A stretch of DNA of 64,000 bases from Ardenticatenaceae bacterium (GTDB taxonomy: Bacteria; Chloroflexota; Anaerolineae; Promineifilales; Promineifilaceae): the NCBI GenBank assembly GCA_020634415.1, contig JACKBT010000020.1, forward strand, positions 38,378-102,377, given 5' to 3'. Of the stretch, positions 1 to 64,000 are shown one piece after another (within the stretch, counting starts at the first letter, position 1; the number at the start of each line of letters is the position of its first letter). A program made the translations under genes and the position numbers. The notes under the pieces were generated by a model that was not told where the DNA came from, did not search any database, and saw only the letters and a list, made by a program, of their open reading frames with translations.

Positions 1-591
1 TGAAATACTCCCCAGAACGGCAAGCAGAAATTCTGCGAGCTTATCATGAAAGGTCAAGCCTACGAGGTTTGGCCAGAACCTTTGGCGTGGCTCGGCAAAC
101 AGTAGCCAAATGGTTAAAAAAAAGCCCAGACTCTACCACCCATTGCTCAGACCTTAGTGACCAGTAAAGGAGATGATGTTTTGGAACTGGATGAACTCTG
201 GTCATTTGTCTTGCATAAGGGCAACAAACGGTGGATTTGGATTGCCCTCTGTCGTCGCACTCGCCAAGTGGTTGCCTACTTTATTGGTGACCGTAGTGAG
301 GAAAGTTGCTGGCGTTTGTGGCAACGGATTCCCCGGGCTTACCGTCACTGTCAGACCTTCAGCGACTTCTGGGAGACCTATGCCACTGTTTTCGGCACTT
401 TGGCTAAAGAGCATCAATCGGTCGGCAAAGAAAGTGGTCAAACGGCTCACGTTGAACGCTGGAATAACACCTTGCGTCAACGCTTGGCACGCTTTGTACG
501 GAAGAGTCTCTCTTTTTCCAAATCGGATGAATTTCATGAAATTGCTCTCAAACTCTATCTGCATGAATACAATTTGAGGGTCATCAGTTGA
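1..591 (+). CDS. IS1-type transposase, two frames joined at an A8 run, 5' edge cut
   Basis: The first frame (from base 3, start codon apparently straddling the window edge) reads KYSPERQAEILRAYHERSSL and on through a helix-turn-helix (LRGLARTFGVARQTVAKWLK), as in the InsA half of IS1. A second frame carries the catalytic InsB half: VLELDELWSF with the first Asp, YFIGDRSEES, then HVERWNNTLRQRLARFVRKS with the Glu. The two frames meet at a run of eight A at 116-123; the second frame is open back to this run, so the join needs a +1 (or -2) slip. IS1 elements are known to make transposase by slippage at an A run, usually -1. The stop of the first frame lies near 167. I could not define the right terminal repeat. 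Lack of ACGGCCGT motifs fits a recent arrival. It may be active or frameshift-dead. Confidence 0.8.
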
Positions 592-613
592 GTGTTAACC
601 ATTACCTGATAAT

Positions 614-655
614 TACTCAATTACCCAATTACCCAATTACCCCATTACTCCCCAC
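614..655. repeat. Direct-repeat tract of the AATTACCC family
   Basis: Four tandem variants of AATTACCC/AATTACTC sit between the IS1 stop and the stop of the oppositely oriented GMC oxidoreductase. The same words recur at 4343-4390, 6945-6972, 31281-31304, 32551-32593 and 45301-45353, in several of them as inverted copies that can pair. No long stem forms here, so a terminator role is not evident at this copy. Confidence 0.6.
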
Positions 656-2216
656 TCAAAATCAAATCCGCACACTTCTCGCCAATCATAATGCAGGGGT
701 TGTTGGTGTTGGCGTTGATGATGAAGGGCATGATGGAGGCATCGGCCACACGCAGGCCCTGAATGCCGTGTACCTGCAAGCGGTCATTCACCACCGCCAT
801 GGGGTCGTGGCCCATTTTGCAGGTGCCGACGGGGTGATAGATATTCTGTGCCCAGTTGCGCACAAACTCGCGCAGCTCTTCATCACTTTGCACAGCGGCT
901 CCAGGCAAATATTCCTCCCCACGATAGGCATCAAACGCGGCCGAGTTTAAGATTTGGCGGGCGATTTTAATGCCCTCGACAATGACGGTCATGTCTTCTT
1001 CGGCCGACAGATAGTTGGGGTCAATGAGGGGTGGGTCGTGGGGGTCGGCGGAACGGAGGGTGAGATGGCCGACGCTTTTGCAGCCGACGATGCCGGAGGT
1101 GAGGGTGAAGCCATGCCCCTCGGGATTGCCTGCGCCGTGCAAGATGAACCAGCCAGGGGCGAAGTGGAATTGCAGTTCGGGCGCGGCCGATTCAGGGTTT
1201 AGTTTGAGAAAACCGCCCGCCTCACCCACGTTGGAGGTTAACATGCCTTTGCCTTCCTGGAACTTGGCGAACTGCTCTTCACTGGCGGCAGCGGTCAGGG
1301 TGATGGGTTGAGTAGCATGGTAGGCAACGGGGGCCATGAGATGATCTTGCAGGTTTTGGCCGACACCGGGTAAATCCATGACGACCTCAATGCCAAACTT
1401 TTCCAGCGTCTCACGGGGGCCAATGCCGGAGAGCATGAGGAGTTGGGGGGAGTTGATAGCACCGGTGCAGACGATGACTTCGTGGGCGGCGGTGGCGGTG
1501 TGGGCTGCGCCGTTTTTGTGGTAGACGGCTCCGGTGCAGCGTGGGCCATCGAAGGTGAGGTGTTGGACGTGGGCGTGGGGAACGGCCGTTAAATTTTCTC
1601 GTGTCAGTGCTGGATGCAGATAAGCCACAGCCGCACTATGGCGCATCCCATTCTTCTGTGTTACCTGATACAGGCCAAAGCCCTCCTGACTCGCGCCATT
1701 AAAATCATCGTTGATGGGGTAGCCCTGCTCACCAGCGGCCTGCACCAAAGCCTGAGAGAGGGGGCTGGGGTCACGCAGATCGGCCACGTTGATGGCCCCG
1801 CCAACGGCGTGATATTCCGATTCGCCGCGCTCCTGGTTTTGGGCTTTGCGGAAGTAGGGCAGCACATCCTCCCAGGCCCAGCCTTCGTTGCCCATTTCGG
1901 CCCAGGTGTTGTAGTTGGCGGGGTTGCCGCGCTGGTAGATCATGGCGTTGATGGAGCTAGAGCCGCCGAAGGCTTTGCCACGCGGCATGTATTCGATACG
2001 GCCGTTTAGATACTTCTGGGGTTCTGTTTCATAGGCCCAATCAAACGGGGTTTTGAACAACAGGGGGAAGGTGACGGGAACATGGATGTTTTGCTCATCA
2101 TCAGGGCCGCCCGCCTCGAGTAATAAGACCTGGTAACGGCCGTTCTCCGACAGCCGTGCGGCCACCGCGCAACCGGCTGACCCTGCGCCAATCACAATAT
2201 AATCGTACTGCATCAT
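645..2216 (-). CDS. GMC-family FAD-dependent oxidoreductase (choline dehydrogenase-like)
   Basis: 523 residues, normal length for glucose-methanol-choline oxidoreductases. The N-terminus has the FAD dinucleotide-binding motif YIVIGAGSAGCAVAARLSE. GMC signature 1 (RGKAFGGSSSINAMIYQRG, about residue 80-100) and signature 2 (TGAINSPQLLMLSGIGP, about 250) are present, and the C-terminal active-site region reads NIYHPVGTCKMGHD with the conserved His, followed by the flavin-proximal NANTNNPCIMIGEK. These enzymes oxidise primary alcohols at a flavin in the cytoplasm; choline, other alcohols or long-chain alcohols are all possible, and no betaine aldehyde dehydrogenase is adjacent, so I do not name it betA. 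The first of two adjacent ATGs is chosen because an AAGGAG lies four bases upstream. Confidence 0.9.
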   Translation of the reverse strand: MMQYDYIVIGAGSAGCAVAARLSENGRYQVLLLEAGGPDDEQNIHVPVTFPLLFKTPFDWAYETEPQKYLNGRIEYMPRGKAFGGSSSINAMIYQRGNPANYNTWAEMGNEGWAWEDVLPYFRKAQNQERGESEYHAVGGAINVADLRDPSPLSQALVQAAGEQGYPINDDFNGASQEGFGLYQVTQKNGMRHSAAVAYLHPALTRENLTAVPHAHVQHLTFDGPRCTGAVYHKNGAAHTATAAHEVIVCTGAINSPQLLMLSGIGPRETLEKFGIEVVMDLPGVGQNLQDHLMAPVAYHATQPITLTAAASEEQFAKFQEGKGMLTSNVGEAGGFLKLNPESAAPELQFHFAPGWFILHGAGNPEGHGFTLTSGIVGCKSVGHLTLRSADPHDPPLIDPNYLSAEEDMTVIVEGIKIARQILNSAAFDAYRGEEYLPGAAVQSDEELREFVRNWAQNIYHPVGTCKMGHDPMAVVNDRLQVHGIQGLRVADASIMPFIINANTNNPCIMIGEKCADLILSGE

Positions 2217-2316
2217 ATTTCTCCTTGTGTGATTTTTCCGAATGAGTTGTAGGCGTAAATGCTTTAGCTGCCCATTGTAGCACGGAAAACGGAAAACGGA
2301 ATGACCCGACGAGCCG

Positions 2317-4326: not shown

Positions 4327-4342
4327 AGTACCTGGGGGGTTA

Positions 4343-4390
4343 TGGGGTAATTGCGTAATGAAAGCAACGCCCCATTACGCAATTACCCCA
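4343..4390. terminator. 18-bp perfect hairpin in the PCMT/solute-binding gap
   Basis: The arms TGGGGTAATTGCGTAATG (4343-4360) and its exact complement (4373-4390) flank a 12-base loop. It lies just after the stop of the PCMT-like gene and before the next gene on the same strand. It has no long T run, so it could weaken rather than end transcription. It is built from the words of the AATTACCC family. Confidence 0.6.
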
Positions 4391-4398
4391 TTACTAAA

Positions 4399-5628
4399 TT
4401 ATTGCCACCGCAGCACAAACTGCTGCCACTGCTTGGGGATGATGCGTTCGTCGGGGCTGGGTTGGTAGGGATGGTTGAGAGGGTAGGCAGTGATAGATAG
4501 ATCGTTGATGGTGGGACGGCCGTTTCGTTCCCACTCGCTGATAACTGTCCACAAACGCTGCGCGGCCGTTGCTTGCGGGCCAAAGCCGCAAACAGCCAAC
4601 TCAATACGGGCCGGATCGTTGGTTTTTTGCGGAGCCAACACCGCCAAACTCTCCTTTGCCCACAACCCCATAGAGCTTTGCCATTTGCTGCTGTCAGTCT
4701 GGAAAAGCGGTGGCACCAGGCCAACATCTGCCGCTTCGCCATGCGCCACCAGATGGCAAAAGTGGCGTTCGCGCAGGGCCAGCCAGCCAGCCAGATCGCG
4801 CCCTAATTTGCGGCGCGTCAGCGTGATGCGGGTACGCTGTTGGGGGGCTGGCTGCTGCAGCCATTGGTAGATGGCATCGGCCTGATCGGGCAGCGGGGTG
4901 ATGGCCTGCAACGTCAGGTTGGGGATGGGGCCAAGAGTGAGAATGTACTCTGGCTCGGTGAAGGGGCCGCGCAGCCGCATGAAGCCGCAGGGGGCCACAG
5001 ATTGGCTGACAAAACGGCCGTTTTCCCGGTCAAAAGCGACGGATAGCTGGGGGCCATTGAGGGAGAGAGGCAGGAGCAGACGGCCGTTGGCCGCCAACTG
5101 CTCCACCCAAGCCGGGCTAATGTCCCAACCACCAACCGTCAGAATGATGCGATCATACGGAGCCTGGTCCACCCAGCCCAATGTGCCATCGGCACAGATG
5201 ACATGAACGGGAGCGGGAACGGCCGCTGCCGCCACATGCTCCCGTGCCGCCAGCACAATATCCTCATCAATATCCAGCGTCGTCACCCGCCCCGTTTCGC
5301 CCACAATGTGGGCCATGATGGCCGCGTTATACCCCGTGCCAGCCCCAATTTCCAGCACCCGATGGCCGGGCTGCAAATCAAGCTGCTCCAGCATAATCGC
5401 CATCATGGCTGGCTGGGAGGAGGAGCTGATGGCCCGGCCGTTTTCCATTTTGGTGGGAATGGCATCATCCTTATAGGCTTTTTCTAGGGGAATATCCGGT
5501 AAAAAGTGATGGCGCGGCACGGCGCGGAAGGCGGCCTCCACCCGCGACGACTGGATGAGTTTGTCGCTGGTGAGTTTGTCTATGAGGGCTTGATGGTAAA
5601 AGTTGGCTGCGTCTGATGGGTTGGACAT
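4399..5628 (-). CDS. Protein-L-isoaspartate O-methyltransferase-like protein with C-terminal extension
   Basis: 409 residues, about twice the length of a classical PCMT. Residues 1-200 match that family: VEAAFRAVPRHHFLP, DDAIPTKMENGRAISSSSQPAMMAIML (substrate loop) and the SAM-binding motif I HRVLEIGAGTGYNAAIMAHIVG, followed by the acidic VTTLDIDEDIV. PCMT repairs isoaspartyl residues in aged proteins by SAM-dependent methylation. The C-terminal 200 residues (LTLTRRKLGRDLAGWLALRERHFCHLV, VAHGEAADVGLVPPLF) are an extension seen in some methyltransferase relatives and may direct a different substrate, so repair activity is inferred. The start follows a hairpin-rich gap. Confidence 0.8.
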   Translation of the reverse strand: MSNPSDAANFYHQALIDKLTSDKLIQSSRVEAAFRAVPRHHFLPDIPLEKAYKDDAIPTKMENGRAISSSSQPAMMAIMLEQLDLQPGHRVLEIGAGTGYNAAIMAHIVGETGRVTTLDIDEDIVLAAREHVAAAAVPAPVHVICADGTLGWVDQAPYDRIILTVGGWDISPAWVEQLAANGRLLLPLSLNGPQLSVAFDRENGRFVSQSVAPCGFMRLRGPFTEPEYILTLGPIPNLTLQAITPLPDQADAIYQWLQQPAPQQRTRITLTRRKLGRDLAGWLALRERHFCHLVAHGEAADVGLVPPLFQTDSSKWQSSMGLWAKESLAVLAPQKTNDPARIELAVCGFGPQATAAQRLWTVISEWERNGRPTINDLSITAYPLNHPYQPSPDERIIPKQWQQFVLRWQ

Positions 5629-5640
5629 GCCGCTTTGTAG

Positions 5641-5709
5641 AATTATGAATTAGAAATTAAGAATTAGGAAAATGCCCCTTCATAATTCCTAATTCTTAAT
5701 TCATAATTT
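5641..5709. repeat. Imperfect AT-rich inverted repeat
   Basis: The left arm (5641-5670) and right arm (5687-5709) are complementary except for a seven-base bulge. Both are made of the words AATTATGAATTA/AATTAAGAATTAGG. It lies in the leader of the PCMT-like gene and downstream of the winged-helix gene. It is one of several gap palindromes made from short repeated words. Confidence 0.6.
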
Positions 5710-5733
5710 CTTCCTTGCGGCCATTATAACAGA

Positions 5734-5766
5734 AACGGCCGTTTCCCACTGGTGGAAACGGCCGTT
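5734..5766. repeat. Hairpin made of two ACGGCCGT motifs
   Basis: Two AACGGCCGTT-type copies are arranged as an inverted repeat: arms AACGGCCGTTTCC and GGAAACGGCCGTT with loop CACTGGT. Each motif is itself palindromic, so either a 13-bp stem or two small ones can form. It lies between two genes of the same strand. Confidence 0.65.
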
Positions 5767-5841
5767 CAAGAGGCAAAGAGCAAAACTGTTTACTTACGCT
5801 TAATGCGCCTGCTCCATCACCTCAGCCACCATGCTATTCAC

Positions 5842-6972: not shown

Positions 6973-6976
6973 CCCC

Positions 6977-38881: not shown

Positions 38882-40297
38882 ATGACACAACTCTCCCTCG
38901 ACAACCTGCAAACGGCCGTCCACTCCGCCCTCAAAACCTGGGGCAAAAACCTCGATGCCGAAGCCGAACCCCTGCAACAACTCCTCCTCGTCCAAAACCA
39001 GCTTGGTGAGCACAGTGCCGCCTCCCTCAACACCCTGCGCCACGCCATAGACCGAGTGCTAATGGATGGCATAAACCTGCTGGCGGCACAGGATGAAATA
39101 GGAGCGAAAGTGCTAAACGGCCGTTTCCTTGACAACCAAATCACCCGCAAAGTCGCCCAACAACTGCACGCCAGCCCCGATCAAGTCAATCGCTGGCAGC
39201 GCATCGCCCTGGAACTGTTAACCCAACTGCTGTGGCAGCAAGAACAAGTTCTGCGCCAAATCCGCCTGGAAAAGTTAGAGAAAAACCTGCCCCCCGCCCC
39301 CTACATCCGCCTCTTCGGCCTCGACGAGGCGCGGCAAAACCTGCAAACCCTGCTGCTGGCCGACACAAACCCCTGGCTCATCAGCATCATGGGCATCGGC
39401 GGCATCGGCAAAACCAGCCTGGCCGATTGCGTCGTTCGCGCCGTTTTACCCACCATGCACTACCAGCAGGCCGCCTGGGTGCGCGTAGACCACGAACCCA
39501 TGAGCGGCCAGGTGCTGCCCGCCGCCCCAGCCTTCGCCCAAGTCATGCGCGATCTGGCGGCGCAATTATGGCCGGAGGGCGGTGGCAGTGACCCCCTGCC
39601 GCAGCAGTTGCAGCGGCTGCACCACGCCTGCCAGGATCAACCCCATCTCATTATCATTGACAACCTGGAAACAGAGGCGCAAATCAGCCACTTTGCCCAG
39701 CAGTTGGCTCCAATGACTAAACCCAGCCGCTTCTTGTTCACCTCCCGTGCACGGCCTGTGGGCACAACGGCCGTCTACAGCCACACCCTCACCGAACTCC
39801 CCTTCGCCGATGCCCAAGCCCTGGTCCGCTACCAGGCCGGGGCCATGGGCCTGGTGGAGTTGGCGCAGGCGGAAACGGCCGTTATCCAAACCATCTACGA
39901 CATCAGCGGCGGCAACCCCCTGGCCCTCAAACTCGTCGTCAGCCTGGCCGACGTGCTGCCCCTGCCCCAAATCCTGGCCGATTTGGCCCAGAATCGCGTT
40001 GGCCCCATCGAAGATTTATACCGTCACATCTACTGGCAAGCCTGGCACAACCTCAGCCCGCCCGCCCAAGACCTGCTGCAAGCCATGCCCCTCGTGGCCG
40101 CTTCGGGCGCACTGCCAGAGCAAATGCAAATGATGGCGGGTTTGGCGGATGATGCTTTTTGGACGGCCGTTCACGAACTCAGCACCCGCTCCCTCCTGGA
40201 AATACGCGGCACCATCCACCAACGCCGCTACAGCATCCACCGGCTCACCGAAACCTTCCTCCGCACCGAGATTGTGCGGTGGGAAGGTGATCAGTAA
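38882..40297 (+). CDS. NB-ARC (STAND) NTPase
   Basis: 471 residues. The N-terminal 130 residues are helical with an HTH-like stretch (DNQITRKVAQQLHASPDQVNRW). The NB-ARC core has Walker A ISIMGIGGIGKTSLADCVV (about residue 165-185), Walker B QPHLIIIDNLETE, sensor RFLFTSRARP, GGNPLALKLVVSL (GLPL-like) and a winged-helix part ending in RYSIHRLTETFLRTEIV. STAND proteins are signal-activated switches, many acting in antiviral defence or regulation. The sensor domain that usually follows is encoded by the next gene in the same frame, separated by a hairpin with stops. Confidence 0.82.
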   Translation: MTQLSLDNLQTAVHSALKTWGKNLDAEAEPLQQLLLVQNQLGEHSAASLNTLRHAIDRVLMDGINLLAAQDEIGAKVLNGRFLDNQITRKVAQQLHASPDQVNRWQRIALELLTQLLWQQEQVLRQIRLEKLEKNLPPAPYIRLFGLDEARQNLQTLLLADTNPWLISIMGIGGIGKTSLADCVVRAVLPTMHYQQAAWVRVDHEPMSGQVLPAAPAFAQVMRDLAAQLWPEGGGSDPLPQQLQRLHHACQDQPHLIIIDNLETEAQISHFAQQLAPMTKPSRFLFTSRARPVGTTAVYSHTLTELPFADAQALVRYQAGAMGLVELAQAETAVIQTIYDISGGNPLALKLVVSLADVLPLPQILADLAQNRVGPIEDLYRHIYWQAWHNLSPPAQDLLQAMPLVAASGALPEQMQMMAGLADDAFWTAVHELSTRSLLEIRGTIHQRRYSIHRLTETFLRTEIVRWEGDQ

Positions 40298-40299
40298 TC

Positions 40300-40342
40300 G
40301 GTAATCGGTGATCCGTAATCGGATTACGGATCACCGATTACC
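40300..40342 (+). repeat. Perfect 21-bp hairpin splitting NB-ARC from TPR
   Basis: The arms (40300-40320 and 40322-40342, containing CGGTGATCCGTAATC) are exactly complementary around a single G. The unit brings in-frame stops at 40295 and 40316 in the frame shared by both genes. Words TAATCGG are shared with the hairpin at 62370-62407. Confidence 0.85.
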
Positions 40343-40351
40343 GTCTTCCCC

Positions 40352-41530
40352 ATGCCTTCTCCCTCCTTCATCCGCAGCATCGCTGCCAACATCGCCTACT
40401 GGCAGCAGGCCACCCAAAACCTGACGGACGAAACCCTGCCCACCATCGAGCAGGATCGGCAAAATCTCTATCGGGCAATTGAGTTTGGGGCGCAGTTAGA
40501 GGAGACGTGGCGGGAAACGGCCGTTCTCGCCCTGCAATGTTATCCCCTCATCGAGCGGCGTGGTTACTGGCACGAATGGATTCCCCTGCTGGAACGGCTG
40601 CGTCAGGCCCCTGGTGGGGATGATTTGATTGTGATCGGCCGTTTGCTCAACCAACTGGGCATCTTCTACCGCTACAACCACCAGCTAGAAAAATCCCTGG
40701 CAGCCCATTGGCAAGAAATCGAACTAGGCCGCCTGATGGCCGACGACTGGCGGCTGGCCCATGCCCACATCAACCTGGCCGCCACCAACCGCGAACTACA
40801 CCAGTACGACGAAGCCGAACAACACGCCATCGCCGCCCGTGACCATTTCCGCATTATCAAAGCCGCCCCCATTAAATTTGCCTTCGTTGCTAAAGAAATG
40901 GGCCTCATCGCCCAGGCGCGAGGACAGTGGGACAAAGCCGAAGCCCAACAGCGCCAGGCCATTGCACTCTGGCGCGAGATCAACCAGCCCATCCTATTGG
41001 TCGAATCGCTCCGGCTGCTCGGCCAGGTTTTGTGGAAGCAAACCCGGCTCGACGAAGCCCTGGCTATTTACCAGGAAGCCTTAGCCCTCCTCGAGGCAAC
41101 GGATAGTGAACTGAACAAATCTCGGGTATTTATAGATATAGGCGCCCTGTACTACGATAAGGGCGATTGGGAAAAAGCAGAAGCCTACTTTTTACAGGCC
41201 GATTCACCCACCATGCGCTATTCTGGCAACCTGTTTGCCCAGGCGCAACTAAAGGGCAATTTGGGCAATGTTTATCTCATGAACGGCCGTCTCGACAAAG
41301 CCACCAGTTGCCTGCAACAAGCCATCACCTTCTGGCAGCAAACCGACGATCACCTTCGTTTAGCCAACGCCCTGGGCACACTAGCCGAAGTACATGTGGC
41401 CCAGGGGGAGGCCGCGTCCGCAGTGCCACTCTTACACCAGGCCCTAACACTGCTGGCCGACTACCCCGACGATGCCTGGAGTCAACGCTTGCAAACAAAT
41501 TTTGGGCGAATACTCGCTGAGATTTCATAA
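40352..41530 (+). CDS. TPR-repeat protein, sensor-like partner of the NB-ARC protein
   Basis: 392 residues, all helical. TPR units are recognisable from about residue 80: GRLLNQLGIFYRYNHQLEKSLAAHWQEIELGRL, AHINLAATNRELHQYDEAEQHAIAARD, KEMGLIAQARGQWDKAEAQQRQAIALWRE, LGQVLWKQTRLDEALAIYQEALALLE, FIDIGALYYDKGDWEKAEAYFLQAD, KGNLGNVYLMNGRLDKATSCLQQAITFW and ALGTLAEVHVAQGEAASAVPLLHQALTLL. It is exactly the kind of domain that follows NB-ARC in single-chain STAND proteins and is in the same frame as the gene before it. No Shine-Dalgarno is visible at the ATG. It may work as a separate subunit. Confidence 0.8.
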   Translation: MPSPSFIRSIAANIAYWQQATQNLTDETLPTIEQDRQNLYRAIEFGAQLEETWRETAVLALQCYPLIERRGYWHEWIPLLERLRQAPGGDDLIVIGRLLNQLGIFYRYNHQLEKSLAAHWQEIELGRLMADDWRLAHAHINLAATNRELHQYDEAEQHAIAARDHFRIIKAAPIKFAFVAKEMGLIAQARGQWDKAEAQQRQAIALWREINQPILLVESLRLLGQVLWKQTRLDEALAIYQEALALLEATDSELNKSRVFIDIGALYYDKGDWEKAEAYFLQADSPTMRYSGNLFAQAQLKGNLGNVYLMNGRLDKATSCLQQAITFWQQTDDHLRLANALGTLAEVHVAQGEAASAVPLLHQALTLLADYPDDAWSQRLQTNFGRILAEIS

Positions 41531-41545
41531 TAAGTTTCTTCAATT

Positions 41546-41592
41546 GGAGTCGAGGCTTTAGCCCGGCCATTTCCGGCTAAAGCCTCGACTCC
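41546..41592. terminator. 18-bp perfect hairpin between convergent genes
   Basis: GGAGTCGAGGCTTTAGCC pairs exactly with 41575-41592 around an 11-base loop, between the TPR gene stop and the stop of the small secreted peptide. Confidence 0.7.
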
Positions 41593-41602
41593 GGTGCGCT
41601 TT

Positions 41603-41761
41603 TTACCCAGTGCAAGAATTGCCAGCTTGCGCCCCCTCACAATCGCCAGCGTAAGTGGAGGCCGCAGGCATAGCCAAAAGAAATGAGAGCAGCAGTGCCA
41701 ATACACACAACCAACGGAGCAAAACATATTTGGGTCTCTGAACAAAAGTCTTCATTAACAT
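41603..41761 (-). CDS. Small secreted or membrane peptide (about 50 residues)
   Basis: From ATG 41761 (or 41755) the frame reads MLMKTFVQRPKYVLLRW, a hydrophobic core LCVLALLLSFLLAMPAAST, then YAGDCEGAQAGNSCTG and stop. This has the charged head, hydrophobic stretch and AxA-like cleavage site of a signal peptide, leaving a mature part of about 15 residues with two Cys. GAGAGGTGAT stands at the right distance before the ATG. It lies between two STAND NTPase genes, on the opposite strand. Function unknown; it could be a secreted signal, a toxin or a gene remnant. Confidence 0.45.
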   Translation of the reverse strand: MLMKTFVQRPKYVLLRWLCVLALLLSFLLAMPAASTYAGDCEGAQAGNSCTG

Positions 41762-41793
41762 CTCATCACCTCTCATAAACTTTTAGAAATGGG

Positions 41794-41837
41794 AGAATTG
41801 GCGACTAGAGACTGGTCAACCTCTAGTTTCCAATCCC
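41794..41837. repeat. Family-A inverted repeat, degenerate copy
   Basis: GGCGACTAGAGACTGG pairs loosely with CCTCTAGTTTCCAATC in the gap between the small peptide start and the NACHT gene. Confidence 0.5.
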
Positions 41838-41967
41838 CCCGAACAACCTTTTCATGCTTTCAGCCTATGTTCAGAGGCCCTTAAGTTGAACGGGGTACTG
41901 CTTAAATTCGCTCAAGTCCTGCTTAAAAAGTTGTGGTATCCTTATTACTGCCCTGATGAGAGGATGG

Positions 41968-42029
41968 GACCCAAAGGGTTTGTTCGTGTTAAGGCGGCCG
42001 CACCGGTCATAAAACCCTTTGGGTCTTTT
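41968..42029 (+). promoter_or_regulatory. Attenuator-like hairpin in the leader of the NACHT gene
   Basis: GACCCAAAGGGTTT and AAACCCTTTGGGTC pair exactly over 14 bp around a 30-base loop that contains GCGGCCGC, and TTTT follows. It ends 15 bases before the start codon at 42044, leaving room only for the GAGGAGAAG ribosome site. As placed, it would stop transcription before the gene unless disrupted. It may instead be a spreading repeat. Confidence 0.55.
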
Positions 42030-42043
42030 GAGAGGAGAAGTGC

Positions 42044-44449
42044 ATGGACAGCTTTGGACAAATATTGCGCCACCTGCGACGACAAAGCCGTGATCCATTA
42101 CGCGGTGGACTGTTAACACAGGAACGACTGGGAGAGATGCTGGGCGATGTGCTGGGGGATGCCGGTTATTCGGGAGCGGCCGTTTCCGATTGGGAGCGCG
42201 ACAAAAGCAAAATCAACGAGGATGATCGCCTAGTGCTGCTGGCCCTGATGACAGTTTTGCGCGACTGCGGCGCAGTTCAGCAAAGCAGCCAGGCCAACCA
42301 ACTGCTGCTGGCAGGCAACTACCGCCGCTTAAACGGCACCGAACAAGCCCAACTATTTCCTGCGGAAGCGAGGCTCGCGCCACGCCCCCCAGAAGAACGG
42401 GAACCCCGCCCCCTGCCCCCCGAACGGCGCAAACAGCTTCTTTTGCTGGAAAAGGTGAAACATTTTTGGGTAGATGGCGTGTTAGCCAAGTCCGTGCAAA
42501 ATGGGGTGCTGTTGGATGTATCGCGGCAGCGGCAAGATACGGCCGTTGCCCAACCCTGGCTCTCCGTCATGGGCACAGACGTTACCCCCCTCCACACCCA
42601 AACCACAACCGCCACCGTTCTAGAAAGCTTCCACACCACCGACCGGGCTTTGCTCATCCTCGGCGCACCTGGTTCGGGCAAAACCACCACCCTCATCACC
42701 CTGGCCCGCGACCTCATCGCCCTGGCCGAAAGCCGTGACAGCGAGCCAATTCCTGTCATTCTCAATCTCACCTCATGGGCCGAACAGCGAACGGCCGTTG
42801 CCGACTGGATCATCGAAGAACTCACCACCAAATACCAAATACCCCGCACCCTGGGCCGCAGTTGGCTGGCCGACGACATGCTCACTCCCCTACTCGATGG
42901 CCTGGACGAAGTGCCGACAGCCCATCAGGCCGCCTGCATCAAAGCCATCAACAGCTACCGTGAGCAGCATGGCCTCAAAGGCATCGCCATCTGCTGCCGC
43001 ACCGACACCTATAACGCCCTCAACACCCCCCTCAACCTGGGCGGAGCCATCCAACTACAGCCCCTCACGCCCGACCAAATTGACAACTACCTGGCGGTAG
43101 GCGGCACACCATTGCAACCCTTGCGCACCGCCATTTGCCAGGATGAGCGGCTGCAAGAACTGGCGCACACACCCCTCACCCTGAGCGTCATGAGCAGCTT
43201 GTACCAGGTCAACAGCCCGGAGCAGGGCCAGGCCAGCCTCATGGAAGACCTCGACGAAGTGCCGCACTATCCGCAGCATCTCTTTGCCGTCTATTTGCAG
43301 CGCATGTATGCGCGGCGCGGCAATTTCCGCTACACGCCAGCCCAAACCACGCAGTGGCTCTCTTGGCTGGCCGGGCAGATGTCGGCCAATAATCAGGCCA
43401 TGTTTCTCATCGAGAAGATGCAGCCCAGTTGGCTGCCCAACCGCACCTGGCGCTGGCTCTACATTTTCGGCTCGCGCCTGGGCGACAGCCTCTTCGTGGG
43501 CCTCTTTTTGTGGCTTTATTGGCTGCTCACTCTGCAAGCCCGCCCCGATTTTGACCTGGACTGGAGTGGGCAGCTTTTGGGTTGGCTGCAAATCCCCATC
43601 ATCTGGCGTGATTTGTTGGCGACGCTGATACGCACCTTCATGGTTGGCTTTCTGGTGGCTGTGTTTGATGCCTTTCTTTATGAGCGCCGTCTCACCAGGG
43701 CCGTGCTCACGAAGCGGCAGATGTGGGGGGAAACGGCCGTTGTCGGCCTCATCGCCCTCAGCACCGCCACCCTTCTGCTTTACCTTTCCACCTGGCACTT
43801 CCTCACCTCGCTTGCCTTTGGCTTTGCTACTGGCGTCGCCTTCATGCTTTTCACCTTCTACGTTCACGGCCACCACTACCAGGGCGACATCCGCACCCTG
43901 GAAGCCCTCACCTGGTCTTGGGCCGGCGCTCTCAAAGGCATCGGCATTGGTTTGATTATTACGGCCGTTATTGAGCTGTTTGAGTGGCGGCTGTATGGCC
44001 CCACTGCCCTGGTACGCACCACTCTCATGGTGGGAACAGCCTTTTTCTTGCTGGGCGGATTAAGCGGCAAGCGGGTGGCCGTCACCAATCGCCCCAATCA
44101 TGGCATTCGCCTCTCGGTGTGGAATTCTGTACTGGTGGCTGTGGTTCTGGGCATTCCGGTGGGGATATTAGGCACAGTGATGTGGCACTGGTTGTATGGC
44201 CTGATCGGGGGTGTGCTGTTGGCCCTGATGGCGGGTACGCTGCACGGGGGGCGCAATGTGGCCAACCATTATTATTTGCGCCTGCTGTTGTGGCTGCAAA
44301 AATGTTTGCCCTGGTCTTATGCCCGTTTTTTGGATGAAACGGCCGATCGCATCATCATGCGCAAAGTGGGCGGCGGCTACATCTTCATCCATCGTTTCTT
44401 GCAAGACTACTTTGAACAAAACGGCCGATCGGCACAGACAACCACCTAA
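42044..44449 (+). CDS. HTH-NACHT NTPase with a C-terminal multi-span membrane region
   Basis: 801 residues. Residues 1-95: XRE-like helix-turn-helix (FGQILRHLRRQSRD, LTQERLGEMLGD, AAVSDWERDKSKINEDDRL). Residues about 150-420: NACHT domain with Walker A LLILGAPGSGKTTTLITLARD, EPIPVILNLTSWAEQ, Walker B MLTPLLDGLDEVPTAHQ with the typical D-GLDE, then GLKGIAICCRTDTYN. Residues about 470-750: about eight membrane spans (SLFVGLFLWLYWLLTL, TFMVGFLVAVFDAFL, FATGVAFMLFTFYV, GIGIGLIITAVIELF, VWNSVLVAVVLGIPVGIL, GLIGGVLLALMAG). The end YIFIHRFLQDYFEQNG is the usual post-NACHT motif. Bacterial NACHT proteins include antiphage sensors; the HTH and membrane part are an uncommon mix. GAGGAG precedes the ATG. 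Confidence 0.82.
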   Translation: MDSFGQILRHLRRQSRDPLRGGLLTQERLGEMLGDVLGDAGYSGAAVSDWERDKSKINEDDRLVLLALMTVLRDCGAVQQSSQANQLLLAGNYRRLNGTEQAQLFPAEARLAPRPPEEREPRPLPPERRKQLLLLEKVKHFWVDGVLAKSVQNGVLLDVSRQRQDTAVAQPWLSVMGTDVTPLHTQTTTATVLESFHTTDRALLILGAPGSGKTTTLITLARDLIALAESRDSEPIPVILNLTSWAEQRTAVADWIIEELTTKYQIPRTLGRSWLADDMLTPLLDGLDEVPTAHQAACIKAINSYREQHGLKGIAICCRTDTYNALNTPLNLGGAIQLQPLTPDQIDNYLAVGGTPLQPLRTAICQDERLQELAHTPLTLSVMSSLYQVNSPEQGQASLMEDLDEVPHYPQHLFAVYLQRMYARRGNFRYTPAQTTQWLSWLAGQMSANNQAMFLIEKMQPSWLPNRTWRWLYIFGSRLGDSLFVGLFLWLYWLLTLQARPDFDLDWSGQLLGWLQIPIIWRDLLATLIRTFMVGFLVAVFDAFLYERRLTRAVLTKRQMWGETAVVGLIALSTATLLLYLSTWHFLTSLAFGFATGVAFMLFTFYVHGHHYQGDIRTLEALTWSWAGALKGIGIGLIITAVIELFEWRLYGPTALVRTTLMVGTAFFLLGGLSGKRVAVTNRPNHGIRLSVWNSVLVAVVLGIPVGILGTVMWHWLYGLIGGVLLALMAGTLHGGRNVANHYYLRLLLWLQKCLPWSYARFLDETADRIIMRKVGGGYIFIHRFLQDYFEQNGRSAQTTT

Positions 44450-45378: not shown

Positions 45379-47913
45379 TTGGAAATAGGCACAATCAGCA
45401 CCATAGACATTAACGACGAAATGAGGAGTTCATACCTCGACTACGCTATGAGTACCATCGTTTCGCGTGCGTTGCCAGATGCTCGTGATGGTCTCAAACC
45501 AGTACACCGCCGCATCCTCTATGCCATGCACGATATGGGCATCCGCCCCAACAGCCCCCATCGCAAAAGCGCCCGTATCGTCGGTGAAGTACTCGGTAAA
45601 TACCATCCACACGGCGACTCCTCCGTCTATGATGCGATGGTTCGTATGGCGCAAGACTTCTCCATGCGCTACATGCTCGTAGACGGCCAAGGCAACTTCG
45701 GCAGCATAGACGGCGACAGCGCCGCCGCCATGCGTTACACCGAAGCCCGCCTCGCCGCCATCGCCACCGAGCTGCTAGAAGATATAGACAAAAACACCGT
45801 AGATTTCGGCCCCAACTTCGACGACAGTCTGGAAGAACCAGAACTACTGCCAGCCCGGCTGCCCAATCTACTGCTCAACGGCTCCTCCGGCATCGCTGTA
45901 GGCATGGCCACCAACATCCCGCCCCACAATCTCAACGAACTTTGCGAGGCCATTGTTTACCTCATTGACCGCCAAGACGACTGGGATAACGTCACCCTCG
46001 ACGAACTGATGCAGTTCGTCAAAGGCCCCGACTTCCCCACCGGCGGCATCCTCATCGGCAACGAAGGCATTCGCAGTGCCTACGCCACCGGGCGCGGGCG
46101 CGTCATCATGCGGGCCGTCGCCGAAGTGGAAGAACTGCCGCGCAACCCCGACCGCCAACAGATTCACATCACCGAAATCCCCTACCAGGTCAATAAATCC
46201 CTGCTCATCGAACGCATTGCCGAACTGGTCACCAAAGGCGTTATCACCGAAATCTCCGATTTGCGTGATGCCTCCGATCGCAACGGCTTATCCATCATCA
46301 TCGAGCTGAAGCGCAACACACAGCCGCTTAAAGTGCTTAACCAACTGTACAAACACACCGCTCTGCAAACCACCTTTGGTGTGCAGATTTTGGCCTTAGT
46401 AGATAAACAGCCACGTCTTTTGTCGCTCAAACGGGCCTTGCAAATTCATATTGAGCATCGGGTCGTGGTCATCACCCGCCGCACCCAGTTTGAGTTGGAT
46501 AAGGCCCTCAAGCGGCAGCACATTTTGGCAGGGCTGCTCATTGCGCTGGAGCATCTGGATGATGTCATTGAAACCATTCGCCGTTCCGATAGTGCTGATG
46601 ATGCCCGTACCCAATTGATGGAACGTTTTGGCCTGTCCGAAGCTCAATCTACGGCTATTTTGGATATGCAACTGCGGCGGTTGGCCGCGTTGGAGCGGCA
46701 GAAGATTGACGATGAGTATAAAGAGGTTTCCGCCCACATTGAATATTTGCAGGGCTTGTTAGCCGATCAGCGCAAAATATTGGCTCTCATCAAAGAAGAT
46801 ATTTTGCAATTGAAAGAAAAGTTCGGTGATGAACGTCGTTCACAAATTGCTTTGGGGCTGGATGCGGATCTCAATATCGAGGATTTGATTCAGGATGAGG
46901 ATGTGCTGATCTCGATTACGCAGCGTGGCTATGTTAAGCGGACACCAGTGGTGGCTTATCGTAAGCAGCAGCGCGGTGGCAAAGGCTTGATTGGCATGAC
47001 GACGCGGGATGAGGATGAGTTGGTGCAGTTGTTTGCCGCCGGTACGCTGAACAGCATTCTCTTTTTCTCGGATCGCGGCAAGGTTTATTCGGAGAAGGCG
47101 TACCAGATTCCCGAAGGCAGCCGCACGGCACGAGGGGCATCGTTGATGAGTATTTTGCCGCTGATGCCGGATGAGAAGATAACGGCCGCTCTGCCTGTCC
47201 ACTCCTTTGAAGATGCCGAATATCTTACGATGATTACGCGCAAAGGGCGCATCAAGCGTGTAGAGGTGAATGCCTTTGCCAATGTGCGCTCATCGGGCTT
47301 GATTGCCCTGAATTTGGATGAGGATGACAGTCTGGGCTGGGTAAAGCTGACTGGCGGCGAACAAGATTTAATCATCATCAGTGAGCAGGGCAAAGGGATT
47401 CGGTTTAGTGAGGAAGATGTGCGGCCAATGGGCCGCACGGCCGCTGGTGTATATGCCATTCGTCTGGATGAATGGGATTATGTTGCCGGAGCCGATGCTA
47501 TTGACCCCAACGATGAAGAGTGCCTCTTGATTATTACCGAGAAAGGCTATGGCAAGCAGACCTCTGTGGATGAATATCGTCGCCAATATCGGTATGGGCA
47601 AGGGGTGCGAGCGATGGTGCTAGACCCCAACCGCACGGGGCGCATTGTGAGTGCGCGGGTTGTGGCCGAAGGGGATGAGGTGACGTGTATCTCATCTAAT
47701 GGTATTATGCTGCGCACTTCGGTGGATGCTATTTCGATGCAGGGGCGCATTACGCAAGGGGTACGGGTGATGGATTTGCGTGGTGGTGATACGGTTGCTT
47801 CGGTGGCTGTAATTCGGGAAGGTCGGTTATCGCGTGTGGAGGAAAAGGATGAAGAGGAAGAGGAAGGGGTTGAGATGGAAACGGCCGTTTCCCCCAATGG
47901 CGCCGCCTCATAA
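45379..47913 (+). CDS. gyrA: DNA gyrase subunit A
   Basis: 844 residues from TTG, with GGAGG nine bases upstream. N-terminal breakage-reunion domain: [74 protein letters not shown] (quinolone-pocket region), and [11 protein letters not shown] with the catalytic Tyr. Beta-pinwheel repeats in the C-terminal third include [19 protein letters not shown] (GyrA box-like), [13 protein letters not shown] and [12 protein letters not shown]. The acidic end [18 protein letters not shown] contains the only ACGGCCGT of the gene. It introduces negative supercoils with GyrB, which is not adjacent. Confidence 0.96.
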
Positions 47914-59480: not shown

Positions 59481-59500
59481 GTTGCACAGGATTCATGGAA

Positions 59501-60677: not shown

Positions 60678-60688
60678 AGTTAAAGCGG

Positions 60689-60710
60689 TAATTACGTCAT
60701 GACGTAATTA
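60689..60710. repeat. Perfect 22-bp palindrome in the potA-potC gap
   Basis: TAATTACGTCA and its exact complement meet at 60699/60700, followed by a further CGTCATTA. It lies between the potC stop and the potA start. The words match the palindrome in the mdh leader (30681). Confidence 0.65.
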
Positions 60711-60715
60711 CGTCA

Positions 60716-61507
60716 TTATGAATCACTCCCCACTCGTCTTAACCTCTCTGCCAAAATAATAATCACCACCGAAGCGGCCATGATGATCGCCCCCAGGGCA
60801 ACAACAACCGGCAGGCGGCGGGGAAAGCGCAGCAAGGAAAAAATATAAACTGGCAGCGTGGCATCCGTGCCAATGACAAACACGCTCATGGCGTATTCGT
60901 CGAAGGAAGTGGTAAAAGCAGTCAAAAAGGCAGCCACCAACGCCGGCAAGCTAATAGGCAGCGTCACACGCAGTTGCGCCCCCCAATAACTCGTGCCCAA
61001 ATCCATCGCCGCTTCTTCCAGATTGTCAGGAAAACCGGCCAAGCGTGCTGCCACAATCAGCATGACAACCGGAATGTTAACCACCACATGTCCCAGCCCC
61101 ACTGTCCACAAACTCAACTCCACGTCAAACACCAGCCGATACAAAATCAGCAAAGCCACACCGATGACCACCGAAGGAATGACCAACGGCAGTGCCGAAA
61201 CTGCCAAAAAGGCAGTGCGCCCAATAAAGTTGAAGCGGATAATGGCGATGGCGGCCATTGTGCCCAAAACCGTAGCGGCTAATGATGAAAGGAGGCCGAC
61301 AACGACGCTGTTTTTAGCCGCATCAATCAGGCCGCTGGTGCGCAGCATCTCGCTGTACCAGCGCGTGGTAAAGCCAGACAGGGGAAAGCGCAGCGATTCG
61401 GAGTCGTTGAAGGAAAAGATGACGAGAATAATGATGGGTAAGTAGAGGAATAAAACGAGGAACCAGTAGAAAAAAGAGCCAAAAGAGAACCAGTCACGTC
61501 GCTGCAT
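60716..61507 (-). CDS. potC: Spermidine/putrescine ABC transporter permease PotC-like
   Basis: 263 residues from the ATG at 61507. Six membrane spans, starting WFLVLFLYLPIIILVIFSFND, as in PotC/PotI. The cytoplasmic coupling loop is LEEAAMDLGTSYWGAQLRVTLPISLPALVAAFLTAFTTSFDEYAMSVFVIG (EAAxDLGxS...ITLP type). It pairs with PotB directly upstream, the two genes separated by a single base. Confidence 0.92.
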   Translation of the reverse strand: MQRRDWFSFGSFFYWFLVLFLYLPIIILVIFSFNDSESLRFPLSGFTTRWYSEMLRTSGLIDAAKNSVVVGLLSSLAATVLGTMAAIAIIRFNFIGRTAFLAVSALPLVIPSVVIGVALLILYRLVFDVELSLWTVGLGHVVVNIPVVMLIVAARLAGFPDNLEEAAMDLGTSYWGAQLRVTLPISLPALVAAFLTAFTTSFDEYAMSVFVIGTDATLPVYIFSLLRFPRRLPVVVALGAIIMAASVVIIILAERLRRVGSDS

Positions 61508-61508
61508 G

Positions 61509-62357
61509 TTAGATTCCTGCCAGATCGGATAAGCGTACAAAACGGCCGACTATAAACAGCGGCACCAATATCAACACCAACATCGCCAGACTCATCAACG
61601 AGCCAAGCGGCCAGTTTAGACCACGCAAGAACTGGTCAAAGATCATGTTGCCAAACATAATGCCCGATGGCCCGCCGACCAGAGCCGGTGTTACATATTC
61701 ACCTACAGTGGGGATGAACACGAAGAGAAATCCGGCCACCACACCGGGCAAACTAAGCGGCAGCGTCACCCGCAAAAAGGCTTCCACTTTGCCACAGCCC
61801 AAATCAGCCGCCGCTTCCAACAAGCTGCGATCAATCCGCTCCAACGCGGCAAAAATAGGCAGAGCCACAAAGGGAATCCAGACGTAAACGAGCGTCACCA
61901 CCACCGCATTGGTGCTGTAAATGAGGATGGGGCCGCTGGGTTCAAAGCCAATGCTTTGCAGCAAGGAGGCCAATACGCCGTTGCCACCCAAGATCACTTT
62001 CCACGACAACACACGCAGCAGGTAGCTGACCCAGGCAGGCACAATGATGATGGTGAGTAAAAAGAGGCGCAGTTCGCCAGTGCGGAAGACGAGGAAGTAG
62101 GCAACTGGATAAGCAAGGATGATGGTAAAGAGGGAGATGCGGAAGGAGAGGACGGTGGAGCGCCACAGAAGCCGCTGGAAGGTGGTGTTGGCGGCGAATT
62201 CGCGGTAATGATCGAGGGTGAAAACCTGGCTGGCCTCACCAAAGGTGCCAGCGCGGAAGGTGTAGAGGGCCATGATGCCCAGCGGTAACAAGAACAGGAC
62301 GACCAGAAAAACGGCCGATGGCGAAATCAGGGCGATAATGCGGTTGCGGTTTTCCAT
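61509..62357 (-). CDS. potB: Spermidine/putrescine ABC transporter permease PotB-like
   Basis: 282 residues with six membrane spans (PSAVFLVVLFLLPLGIMALYTF, LFTIILAYPVAYFLVF, LFLLTIIIVPAWVSYLLRVLSWKVILGGNGVL). The ABC coupling loop reads LLEAAADLGCGKVEAFLRVTLPLSLPGVVAGFLFVFIPTVGEYVTPALVGG. It forms the membrane channel with PotC. The gap to potD holds a 14-bp hairpin, so the binding protein can be expressed more than the permeases. Confidence 0.92.
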   Translation of the reverse strand: MENRNRIIALISPSAVFLVVLFLLPLGIMALYTFRAGTFGEASQVFTLDHYREFAANTTFQRLLWRSTVLSFRISLFTIILAYPVAYFLVFRTGELRLFLLTIIIVPAWVSYLLRVLSWKVILGGNGVLASLLQSIGFEPSGPILIYSTNAVVVTLVYVWIPFVALPIFAALERIDRSLLEAAADLGCGKVEAFLRVTLPLSLPGVVAGFLFVFIPTVGEYVTPALVGGPSGIMFGNMIFDQFLRGLNWPLGSLMSLAMLVLILVPLFIVGRFVRLSDLAGI

Positions 62358-62369
62358 TGTAGGGCTTGA

Positions 62370-62407
62370 TAATCGGTAATCGGATGATGTTTACCGATTA
62401 CCGATTA
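62370..62407 (-). terminator. 14-bp hairpin between potD and potB
   Basis: TAATCGGTAATCGG and its exact complement flank a ten-base loop. It follows the potD stop and precedes the potB start, the usual place of a stem-loop that protects or attenuates binding-protein mRNA. Its words match those at 40300-40342. Confidence 0.7.
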
Positions 62408-62420
62408 CCTCTTGTTAAGA

Positions 62421-63614
62421 CTAAGGCGCGGCTTTCACCTCATCCCAAATGCCAACCATGATCTGCCGCTTTTCTTCGGATATGGGGTCAGGGAAGTAGG
62501 TACGCTCAAACAGCGTATCCATCTGGTCTAACTCCATAAACTCCACAGGAAATTCGTCAATCAGGGGCAGAGCATCCTGATTAGCGGCCCCATACCAATA
62601 GACATTGGCTAAAGCAGCCATAGAATCAGGGCTGATGGCAGAATCTAAATACTCATAAATCAAGTCGAGGTTGGTAGCATCTTTGCCAATGCCATATCCG
62701 CAAACCCAACCAAGCCGCTTTTCGGTGGGGTTGACATAAGCAACTTCGTAGCCTTCACTCAACAAATAACCGTAGGCATCGGGCCAGGTATTGGTCAAAA
62801 TCCAGGCATCACCTGTCTGGGGCAAGTCATAGGCTTCGGTGTAATCTACCCAATAGGTGAGGATGTTGGACTTCAAATCCAACAGGTGTTGTTTAATTTG
62901 CTCATCCTGTTCTGGTGTGGCGTGAACGGGGTCTTCAATACCCAAAGAGAGACCGGCCATCACAAAGTTGCTTTCGGCCGAATCCCAGGGAACCACATGC
63001 CCGGCATACTCATCGCTCCAGACATCGGCCCACGATTCGGGGACGTTTTCAACTAAATCAGTACGCACCAAAATGCTTTCGTAGCCCCAATCCCAGGGGA
63101 CGAAATACTGCTCGCCATTAAAGTTGCCTAAAGCGGCTAATTCGGGGTGGATGCCAGACCAGTTACTGAGGCGTGAGGTGTCAATAGGCTGCAGCAGTCC
63201 GGCTTCAACATACAGTCCCCACCAGGAGTGGCAGGGGTGTACCAGGTCGGCACCGACGTTGGTTTGCATTTTGGTGAAGGCTTCGGCATCGTCGGCGAAG
63301 AGGGTGTATTCAACGGCCGCTTCCAGGGTAGGTGTGTATTTTTCGGTGAAGGGCACAAACATGTAGGGGACTTCGGGGGCGGTGTAGCCAGACCATTCGA
63401 GGACAAGAAGAGGTTCGTCGGGGAAAACGACATCATCGGTGGTGGTATCGGCCGTTTCTGGTTCACTGGCTTCTTCATCACTGGTAGCTGGCTCATCCGC
63501 ATTGGGTTCTGTTTCGGCTTCTTCACCGCCGCCACAGGCCACCAACACAAAGGCCAAAATCAGGGGCAGCACCAGGCTTACCCATAAAACTGCCACTTTA
63601 CGATACATTTTCAT
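62421..63614 (-). CDS. potD: Spermidine/putrescine-binding lipoprotein PotD-like
   Basis: 397 residues from the ATG at 63614, chosen over one at 63638 because AAGGAG lies eight bases upstream. A lipoprotein signal (VSLVLPLILAFVLVAC) with Cys at the lipobox is followed by an acidic, Thr/Glu-rich tether (EEAETEPNADEPATSDEEAS). The binding fold is PotD/SBP type: LVLEWSGYTAPEV, YTLFADDAEAFTKMQTNVGADLVHPCHSWWGLYVEAGLLQPIDTS, FVPWDWGYESILVRTDLV, EKRLGWVCGYGIGKDATN. Gene order is potD-B-C-A, all on one strand. The anionic pocket cannot be verified, so putrescine, spermidine or another polyamine is possible. Confidence 0.93.
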   Translation of the reverse strand: MKMYRKVAVLWVSLVLPLILAFVLVACGGGEEAETEPNADEPATSDEEASEPETADTTTDDVVFPDEPLLVLEWSGYTAPEVPYMFVPFTEKYTPTLEAAVEYTLFADDAEAFTKMQTNVGADLVHPCHSWWGLYVEAGLLQPIDTSRLSNWSGIHPELAALGNFNGEQYFVPWDWGYESILVRTDLVENVPESWADVWSDEYAGHVVPWDSAESNFVMAGLSLGIEDPVHATPEQDEQIKQHLLDLKSNILTYWVDYTEAYDLPQTGDAWILTNTWPDAYGYLLSEGYEVAYVNPTEKRLGWVCGYGIGKDATNLDLIYEYLDSAISPDSMAALANVYWYGAANQDALPLIDEFPVEFMELDQMDTLFERTYFPDPISEEKRQIMVGIWDEVKAAP

Positions 63615-63776
63615 CTCTCTTCTCCTTTTCAAGAACATGCCAGTCCATCGTAACCAGTTGGAACAGCTTACTGCCTGAGGACTGGTAAGGCAGGGCTATT
63701 TATATAGAGCGGAAGCGAGGATGTTAGCGACAGTGCCGGATAGATTGTAACATGCTGTCTTGATTTGAAAATAAAA

Positions 63777-63807
63777 GACCCCATAAGTTAGTCTACCTTA
63801 TAGGGTC
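63777..63807 (-). terminator. Intrinsic terminator of the Lrp/AsnC gene
   Basis: GACCCCATAAG and CTTATAGGGTC pair with one mismatch around a nine-base loop; on the minus strand TTTTATTTT follows. Confidence 0.8.
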
Positions 63808-63847
63808 GAGGGTGGAGAAACGGCCGTATAACCCTGCCTATCTCATC

Positions 63848-64000
63848 TCAAGGAATCCCCCACTGATACGTATTCTTTACAATCTCCAAATACATAAACG
63901 TCTCCGAAGAGCGCACCCCACTGATTTTGGAGATGTCAGTGATGAGATCAACCAGGTGCGTGTTGTCGCGGCAGACCACCTCAATTTGGATGTCGTAGGA
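63848..64000 (-). CDS. Lrp/AsnC-family transcriptional regulator, C-terminal part
   Basis: Fifty residues to a normal stop: SYDIQIEVVCRDNTHLVDLI then TDISKISGVRSSETFMYLEI and VKNTYQWGIP. This is the end of the effector-binding (RAM/AsnC) domain, with the G-V-x-x-S/T-x-T-x pattern of the family. The DNA-binding half lies beyond the window. It precedes potD on the same strand and could control it, though a terminator lies between. Confidence 0.85.
   Translation of the reverse strand, partial: SYDIQIEVVCRDNTHLVDLITDISKISGVRSSETFMYLEIVKNTYQWGIP

Follow-up and report, generated by a model that had tools for sequence, protein, structure and literature searches.

A highly iterated palindrome in one order of Anaerolineae, with a fixed core, switching flanks and a site-centered strand skew

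Introduction

Why does a bacterial chromosome repeat the same eight-base palindrome roughly twice per kilobase? The question is raised by a 64,000-nucleotide stretch of an Ardenticatenaceae bacterium of the phylum Chloroflexota (assembly GCA_020634415.1, contig JACKBT010000020.1, positions 38,378 to 102,377), referred to here in its whole length as the window. The octamer ACGGCCGT had been noticed there from the letters alone and likened to the cyanobacterial repeat HIP1. Highly iterated palindromes (HIPs) are extreme frequency outliers, at ~500–2500 per Mb (Elhai 2015, PMC4390886). HIP1 itself, GCGATCGC, has the core CGATCG, deviates mostly at the outer base, carries palindromic extensions in some genomes and is associated with orphan methyltransferases; section 3.3 of the same paper calls its function a mystery (PMC4390886). 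The best reading of our data is that the Chloroflexota octamer represents a HIP-type system outside Cyanobacteria, in a second phylum, and thus an independent system for studying the unexplained HIP1 repeats. The original prediction knew of no described counterpart in this phylum. Our literature search, which reached few subscription papers, agrees: the matches listed gave HIPs for cyanobacteria only.

The octamer in the window

ACGGCCGT is its own reverse complement, as can be read directly from the sequence. The window (1..64000) has 121 dispersed copies by exact count, both strands alike, with the first start at 1582, the last at 63820 and a mean spacing of 519 bp; a manual count had given about 120, one per ~530 bases. 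Base composition predicts 1.4 copies, in line with the "one or two" of the original prediction. Markov models of order 1–4 predict 0.95–1.77 copies with the octamers masked and 1.06–14.1 unmasked. The maximal-order model predicts 108, a figure that is uninformative because the octamer itself inflates its own sub-words. Sixty synonymous-codon shuffles of our open reading frame (ORF) set gave 12.4 ± 3.2 copies and never more than 19; the real set contains 107.

The claim that the word occurs in all three coding frames and in gaps also held, with 53, 34 and 20 copies in the three frames, 13 outside the ORF set and one straddling an ORF edge. Density is 1.95 per kb inside the ORF set and 1.44 per kb outside it. 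Spacing cannot be told from random and is Poisson-like (coefficient of variation 1.04; Fano factor per 2 kb 1.02), and the closest pair, at 5735..5765, has starts at 5735 and 5758 (minimum spacing 23 bp). Beyond the eight bases there is a degenerate palindromic consensus, with A favored at −1/−2 and G farther out. It was too strong to say that most copies extend to AACGGCCGTT; both flanks are present in 52 of 121 (43%). The window is not a case of HIP1 proper, as it holds no copy of the HIP1 octamer.

Taxonomic reach

The window carries gyrA plus other chromosomal genes. The gyrA gene (45379..47913, plus strand; 844 aa) served as a phylogenetic anchor; its best matches, with up to 82% identity, are metagenome-assembled genomes titled Anaerolineae or Chloroflexi, and its sole octamer lies near the 3′ end (47881..47888). 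Among 80 public GyrA loci, the 17 with at least 75% identity to the window were octamer-rich except L013, and the remaining 63 had 0 or 1 copy each. Whole genomes gave the same picture: 16 of the 17 with GyrA 75–82% identical to the window contain 2984–15,031 copies of ACGGCCGT, the exception being G013 with 155, and 11 more distant genomes contain 7–131 each.

When 298 genomes of the class were sampled, 10 exceeded 400 ACGGCCGT per Mb, and all 10 belong to one Anaerolineae order; the highest density outside that order was ~119 per Mb (G260). Of the 56 genomes of the order, 28 have ACGGCCGT as their dominant octamer, at 437–2102 per Mb, with 27 of the 28 above 990 per Mb. Two genomes of a hexamer type described below, G298 (514 per Mb) and G176 (421 per Mb), have many copies without dominance. 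High-density ACGGCCGT is therefore genome-wide and lineage-specific, confined to one order among the sampled genomes. Relatives carry the octamer by the thousands and it is not limited to this contig; neither outcome that could have undone the original prediction occurred. The comparison to HIP1 is apt on these points as well: this is a lineage-restricted palindromic octamer at ~1–2 copies per kb genome-wide, in all frames and in intergenic DNA.

Nothing favored an origin of the octamer in base composition, codon usage or assembly, and we give such an origin practically no chance; it is contradicted by the Markov, codon-shuffle, intergenic and cross-genome evidence, and we rejected a codon usage or composition artefact on those four tests.

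Some viral and plasmid-like IMG/VR contigs (L330, L367, L318 and L326) have ACGGCCGT at 3.0–3.7 per kb, denser than host chromosomes, but show almost no GC skew around the sites. L330 has genes for ParA-, anti-repressor-, endolysin- and FtsK-like proteins. Octamer density may serve as a host identifier for uncultured mobile elements.

A fixed core with switching flanks

Flank types were surveyed by k-mers in fetched stretches and by whole-genome counts; overlapping loci were removed before pooling, and contig C1 of G338 was only N. The order includes 31 octamer genomes. In addition to the ACGGCCGT genomes, TCGGCCGA prevails in G318 (9414 copies, 1207 per Mb) and G121 (7668 copies, 1504 per Mb) and GCGGCCGC in G205 (12,040 copies, 1505 per Mb). 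The densities of the 28 ACGGCCGT genomes and of the TCGGCCGA and GCGGCCGC genomes (1207–1505 per Mb) are those of HIPs. Six genomes (G176, G298, G226 and G336–338) are enriched for CGGCCG 9.6–18.9-fold with no dominant flank, the commonest of the A, T and G types being only 1.2–3.2 times the next. Enrichment of CGGCCG is 1.7–4.4-fold in a GC-rich group (G063, G095, G140 and others) and 1.2–1.5-fold in G013, G320 and G321. Only G322 alters the core itself, with 3665 copies of TGCCGGCA in 4.0 Mb in place of ACGGCCGT; it was found through a reversed-pattern control count.

In a GyrA tree of 53 sequences, the window's among them (63 less 10 that were partial or paralogous), a clade of four hexamer-only genomes, G226, G298, G337 and G338, is the sister group of all others. 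G176, also hexamer-only, pairs with the T-type G318. The GC-rich group branches from among ACGGCCGT genomes, whose clade also contains G013. One-off variants of the octamer are enriched 1.6–5.3-fold at the outer base and 0.4–1.3-fold at core positions (G319 was excluded from these counts and from the tripeptide counts below); the core shows no excess of decay products. The CGGCCG core is fixed and the outer pair is lineage-specific (A..T, T..A or G..C). Occurrence in all coding frames and between genes, together with one-off deviations biased to the outer positions, is what is expected of a HIP, and a hexamer core with variants enriched at the outer base only extends the predicted likeness to HIP1.

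Related genomes thus span three states, namely no enrichment, the CGGCCG hexamer only, and the full octamer. With three alternative flanks on one core, losses (G013, G320 and G321) and a replacement (G322), the order offers a way to separate a core reader from a flank reader.

A side observation concerns L051, a contig of Thermoflexales BIN20, in which CGATCG is ~9-fold enriched (42 in 13.7 kb) with several outer flanks. This Chloroflexota genome may have an iterated palindrome of the hexamer type, built on the HIP1 core of cyanobacteria.

The proteome imprint and maintenance of sites

Thr-Ala-Val is over-used 6.7-fold in ACGGCCGT genomes (510 observed against 76 expected, 481 of them via the octamer) and 8.4-fold in the window. 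The two TCGGCCGA genomes use it at 0.9-fold and instead over-use Ser-Ala-Glu (5.9-fold) and Ser-Ala-Asp (3.9-fold). Genomes that lost the octamer use Thr-Ala-Val at 1.0-fold and outgroup genomes at 0.6-fold. Because tripeptide usage tracks flank type, it is the DNA word, not protein function, that sets these tripeptides.

Comparison of orthologous genes, one of the checks proposed earlier, was made with 936 best-hit pairs of putative orthologs from ACGGCCGT genomes, at 45–92% identity, drawn from sampled stretches and not whole genomes; for these and the site-sharing set only identical ORFs were removed, so overlapping stretches may count twice. Of 480 directional comparisons with a conserved Thr-Ala-Val, 461 had the spelling ACG-GCC-GT, and the octamer was common to both orthologs in 442 of these, compared with a generic codon identity of 42%. 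For conserved [NYDH]-Gly-Arg, the octamer was shared in 278 of 323 cases versus 8 of 63 for other spellings. When amino acids were not conditioned on, 312 sites had two or more aligned orthologs and 93 of them were shared with none, so octamer sites do turn over. An earlier test confined to GyrA was replaced by the 936 pairs because its set was too small: it offered 0–5 allowed sites per gene, and its lowest-identity bin pointed the opposite way (30/45 against 15/17 in the control).

The pressure that keeps the octamer acts at the DNA level and overrides codon and even amino-acid choice. When a DNA word dictates protein sequence across whole genomes, selection tests and ancestral reconstructions have to take it into account.

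Strand skew centered on the sites

The flanks of the octamer are G-rich on the 5′ side and C-rich on the 3′ side. Skew in the 5′ flank is 0.47 at 3–4 bp and ~0.3 at 5–10 bp, decaying exponentially with a length of 18 bp to a residue of 0.03. It is present at 159 intergenic sites and in frames 0, 1 and 2 (n = 505, 336 and 136). At 5–20 bp, skew is 0.37 ± 0.02 in the window and 0.10–0.35 in 26 of 28 other ACGGCCGT genomes; the other two, G319 and G327, gave 0.02 from 13 and 8 sites. The T- and G-type octamers have values of 0.15–0.29, and TGCCGGCA in G322 has 0.34 ± 0.06 (n = 14 sampled sites).

Skew around all GGCC in the same ACGGCCGT genomes is 0.00–0.13, and control palindromes had no comparable flank skew. 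It is weak in hexamer-only genomes (0.04–0.09), 0.08 at outer one-off variants and −0.01 at other CGGCCG. Octamers that are conserved have higher skew (0.32) than those that are unshared (0.20). Hairpin or cruciform extension was rejected as an explanation, since flank complementarity exceeded chance at the first base (z 3.6) and at only 1 of 11 further offsets (z 2.3). Such a skew is a measurable footprint, and it may connect HIPs with a ~18-nt DNA transaction.

The flanks had no helical period of 10.5 bp, which rules out DNA wrapping. It also counts against the idea that the octamer is bound by a nucleoid or chromosome-organizing protein, abundant and sequence-specific. That idea would suit the genome-wide coverage and the degenerate palindromic consensus that reaches past 8 bp; however, spacing is random, and each flank switch among relatives would need a new protein specificity. 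We consider it improbable.

A candidate orphan methyltransferase and its neighbors

A methylation target was among the roles first suggested for the octamer. Profile scans with PF01555 and PF00145 led to a candidate enzyme, METHYLTRANSFERASE, a conserved protein of ~650–700 aa with motif I DPMMGGGTT, a cysteine-rich middle and a catalytic TDPPYFD. It matches PF01555 at 1.9e-15, over the cut-off, and has the S-adenosylmethionine-binding and catalytic motifs of a DNA N4/N6 amino-methyltransferase; DPM-GGGTT and TDPPY are invariant across 37 sequences. The AlphaFold model (predicted local distance difference test score, pLDDT, 87.3) is a Rossmann-type methyltransferase. The first Foldseek match of the model was CcrM (E 4.9e-4) and the first VIA-align matches were tRNA N2-G methyltransferases; neither search yielded a structure that decides between DNA and RNA as the substrate. 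The search for a cognate methyltransferase has produced a plausible candidate in this orphan enzyme.

Two other possibilities were tried and rejected. An m5C methyltransferase (PF00145) was discounted as the general cognate, as seven high-octamer genomes (G001, G003, G006, G007, G008, G009 and G012) had no match, and a phage-borne source is contradicted by the distance of 30 viral homologs, which are 22–33% identical over longer matches and at most 68% over a 28-residue motif stretch.

The candidate gene, whole or partial, is present in 29 of 31 octamer genomes versus 14 of the 25 others (E ≤ 1e-15; Fisher p 0.0013, without phylogenetic correction). Eight of the 29 (G004, G007, G121, G319, G323, G324, G325 and G327) have only fragmentary or split matches, mostly where a contig ends, and so do G320, G331 and G340 among the 14. 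G013 lacks both the gene and octamer enrichment, and in the sister pair G318 and G176 the octamer genome G318 has the gene and the hexamer genome G176 does not. In the methyltransferase tree, the position of G205 does not follow flank type; some other factor therefore probably reads the flank.

Two copies of the gene are irregular. In G121 (G121:C1:577107-579027) it is split into two overlapping ORFs, despite the 7668 copies of TCGGCCGA in that genome, and the G205 copy has one in-frame TGA; either decay or sequencing error could be responsible.

The enzyme has a partial similarity to DUF1156 anti-phage methyltransferases, and octamers reach 3.7 per kb on the viral and plasmid-like contigs. 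Both would fit a self-mark for defense (restriction-modification or anti-phage) or a DNA-uptake signal. However, two members matched the DUF1156 anti-phage profile over part of their length, at 66.4 and 75.7 bits, far under its curated cut-off of 1000 bits, and the DUF1156 Pfam match (E 0.021) is also below cut-off. Among the annotated neighbors at 20 methyltransferase loci, the conserved ones that were scanned were NurA, a ~210-aa protein without a Pfam match, and HerA. Restriction sites are usually avoided, not enriched, and known uptake sequences are non-palindromic. We give a defense or uptake role little credence.

In 5 of the 20 loci the gene immediately downstream is NurA, and coordinates place NurA there in G007, G008 and G323 too; a HerA-like ATPase is nearby in 3 of 20, confirmed by Pfam PF01935 for one. 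This neighborhood, which is found in deep branches, favors the main rival to the reading we prefer, a selected landmark for recombination or end processing. The octamer would be a palindromic, bidirectional Chi-like or NurA-HerA site that makes HerA-NurA, or some other enzyme of resection, stop or switch mode; selection on DNA repair would keep one site per 500–1000 bp, and the G-rich 5′ flank would be the 3′-ended strand on which recombinase is loaded. Chi is an over-represented, orientation-biased, non-palindromic octamer tied to end-processing enzymes, a nuclease of the RecBCD/AddAB type being attenuated by it. Over-representation and a possible link to such enzymes are common to both words, but the Chloroflexota octamer is palindromic and randomly spaced, and not an oriented word. 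A landmark would also account for the strand asymmetry centered on the site and for how very often sites are shared when the tripeptide is conserved. Against it, spacing is random and not even, NurA is present in 50 of 56 genomes of the order irrespective of octamer state, and selection that creates ~85% of Thr-Ala-Val (510 versus 76 expected) over thousands of sites would be hard to sustain. A landmark is thus a serious contender but, on balance, unlikely.

How the sites may be generated

The enrichment, the core with its switchable flank, the DNA-level pressure and the skew are all directly observed, and a mechanism must fit them together. The one that we prefer, tentatively and at somewhat less than an even chance, is that ACGGCCGT is a HIP of one Anaerolineae order, working in the manner of HIP1. 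Its core would be methylated, and flank-sensitive repair or conversion would be initiated at the site. A putative orphan amino-methyltransferase, probably linked ancestrally to NurA(-HerA), would methylate the CGGCCG core. N4-cytosine is the most likely modification, because the G-type octamer has no adenine. A second factor, which could change independently of the methyltransferase, would sense the outer base pair and direct short-patch repair or gene conversion starting at the site. Such events would favor the complete octamer over one-off variants and re-synthesize an outward patch of ~18 nt. The bias would ratchet octamers up to about one per 500–1000 bp and leave an exponentially decaying strand skew. 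Very-short-patch repair at E. coli Dcm sites provides a precedent, in that site-specific short patches push near-sites to the methylated palindrome; by comparison, the patch length in Chloroflexota comes from composition only.

More broadly, octamer HIPs may be the products of a self-reinforcing drive of site-initiated repair or conversion that rewrites genomes and proteomes, and not the result of per-site selection for function. The exponential GC skew would be its direct footprint, and the flank of its target (in G322, the core) could switch as the process continues. We hold this wider claim as possible rather than probable.

Several observations weigh against these proposals. Eight GC-rich genomes retain the methyltransferase gene at 92–179 octamers per Mb, and no such gene was found in two octamer-bearing genomes (G016 and G332). 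Homologs occur in 53 of 298 class genomes (E ≤ 1e-40); 6 of 8 samples outside the order had no CGGCCG enrichment, and strong hexamer enrichment occurs without the gene. Presence of the methyltransferase alone fails as a predictor across the class: the gene is associated with the octamer and is not sufficient for it. The skew is not a universal rule either. It was 0.04 ± 0.01 at 5–20 bp for 339 octamers in 20 octamer-rich viral loci (chosen from 120 for having 5 or more octamers and a density of 1 per kb or higher, with 3 skipped for overlap), as low as in an earlier 10-locus set with two overlapping pairs. At 145 HIP1 sites, taken from five of six cyanobacterial plasmid stretches and thus representing plasmids and no chromosomes, there was no skew beyond 4 bp. 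These two sets rule out skew as a general trait of octamer-rich DNA.

Comparison with known iterated words

The Chloroflexota octamer resembles HIP1 in being a palindrome of comparable density with a hexamer core and outer-base deviations, and may resemble it in having an orphan methyltransferase associated with it. It differs in its phylum and its core (CGGCCG), in an outer pair that switches between A..T, T..A and G..C among relatives, some of which are hexamer-only, and in its strong measured proteome imprint. Its skew extends farther than at the plasmid HIP1 sites, and its candidate methyltransferase is cysteine-rich and partly DUF1156-like. Single cyanobacteria have alternate HIPs (GGCGCC, rCCGGy, GCsGC, GGGATCCC and TCGATCGA) with inferred cognate methyltransferases (PMC4390886). 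As in our order, one iterated palindrome replaces another, and TCGATCGA is a flank change on the CGATCG core, but the Chloroflexota pattern consists mainly of flank changes on one core.

The G-meC mismatch-repair model places the importance of the outer HIP1 base in its creating G-meC (PMC4390886, section 3.4). By our inference, this model alone does not predict flank fixation in Chloroflexota, because a GGmCC core would have G-meC already. The enzyme M.Ssp6803II makes GG-m4C-C (PMC6560206). The methylated motifs given for CL500-11-like Chloroflexi in the accessible text of PMC6329791 are GANTC, TTAA and GCWGC, not CGGCCG.

Other features of the window

Just upstream of gyrA, at 38882-44449 (plus strand), an NB-ARC ATPase, a TPR protein and a weak NACHT match adjoin each other and look like a STAND-type conflict or signaling cluster. 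A search of the NB-ARC protein against plasmids gave one match, which was irrelevant. At 4399-5628 (minus strand), an FxLD-system methyltransferase matches NCBIfam TIGR04364 above its cut-off, which suggests a peptide-modification system.

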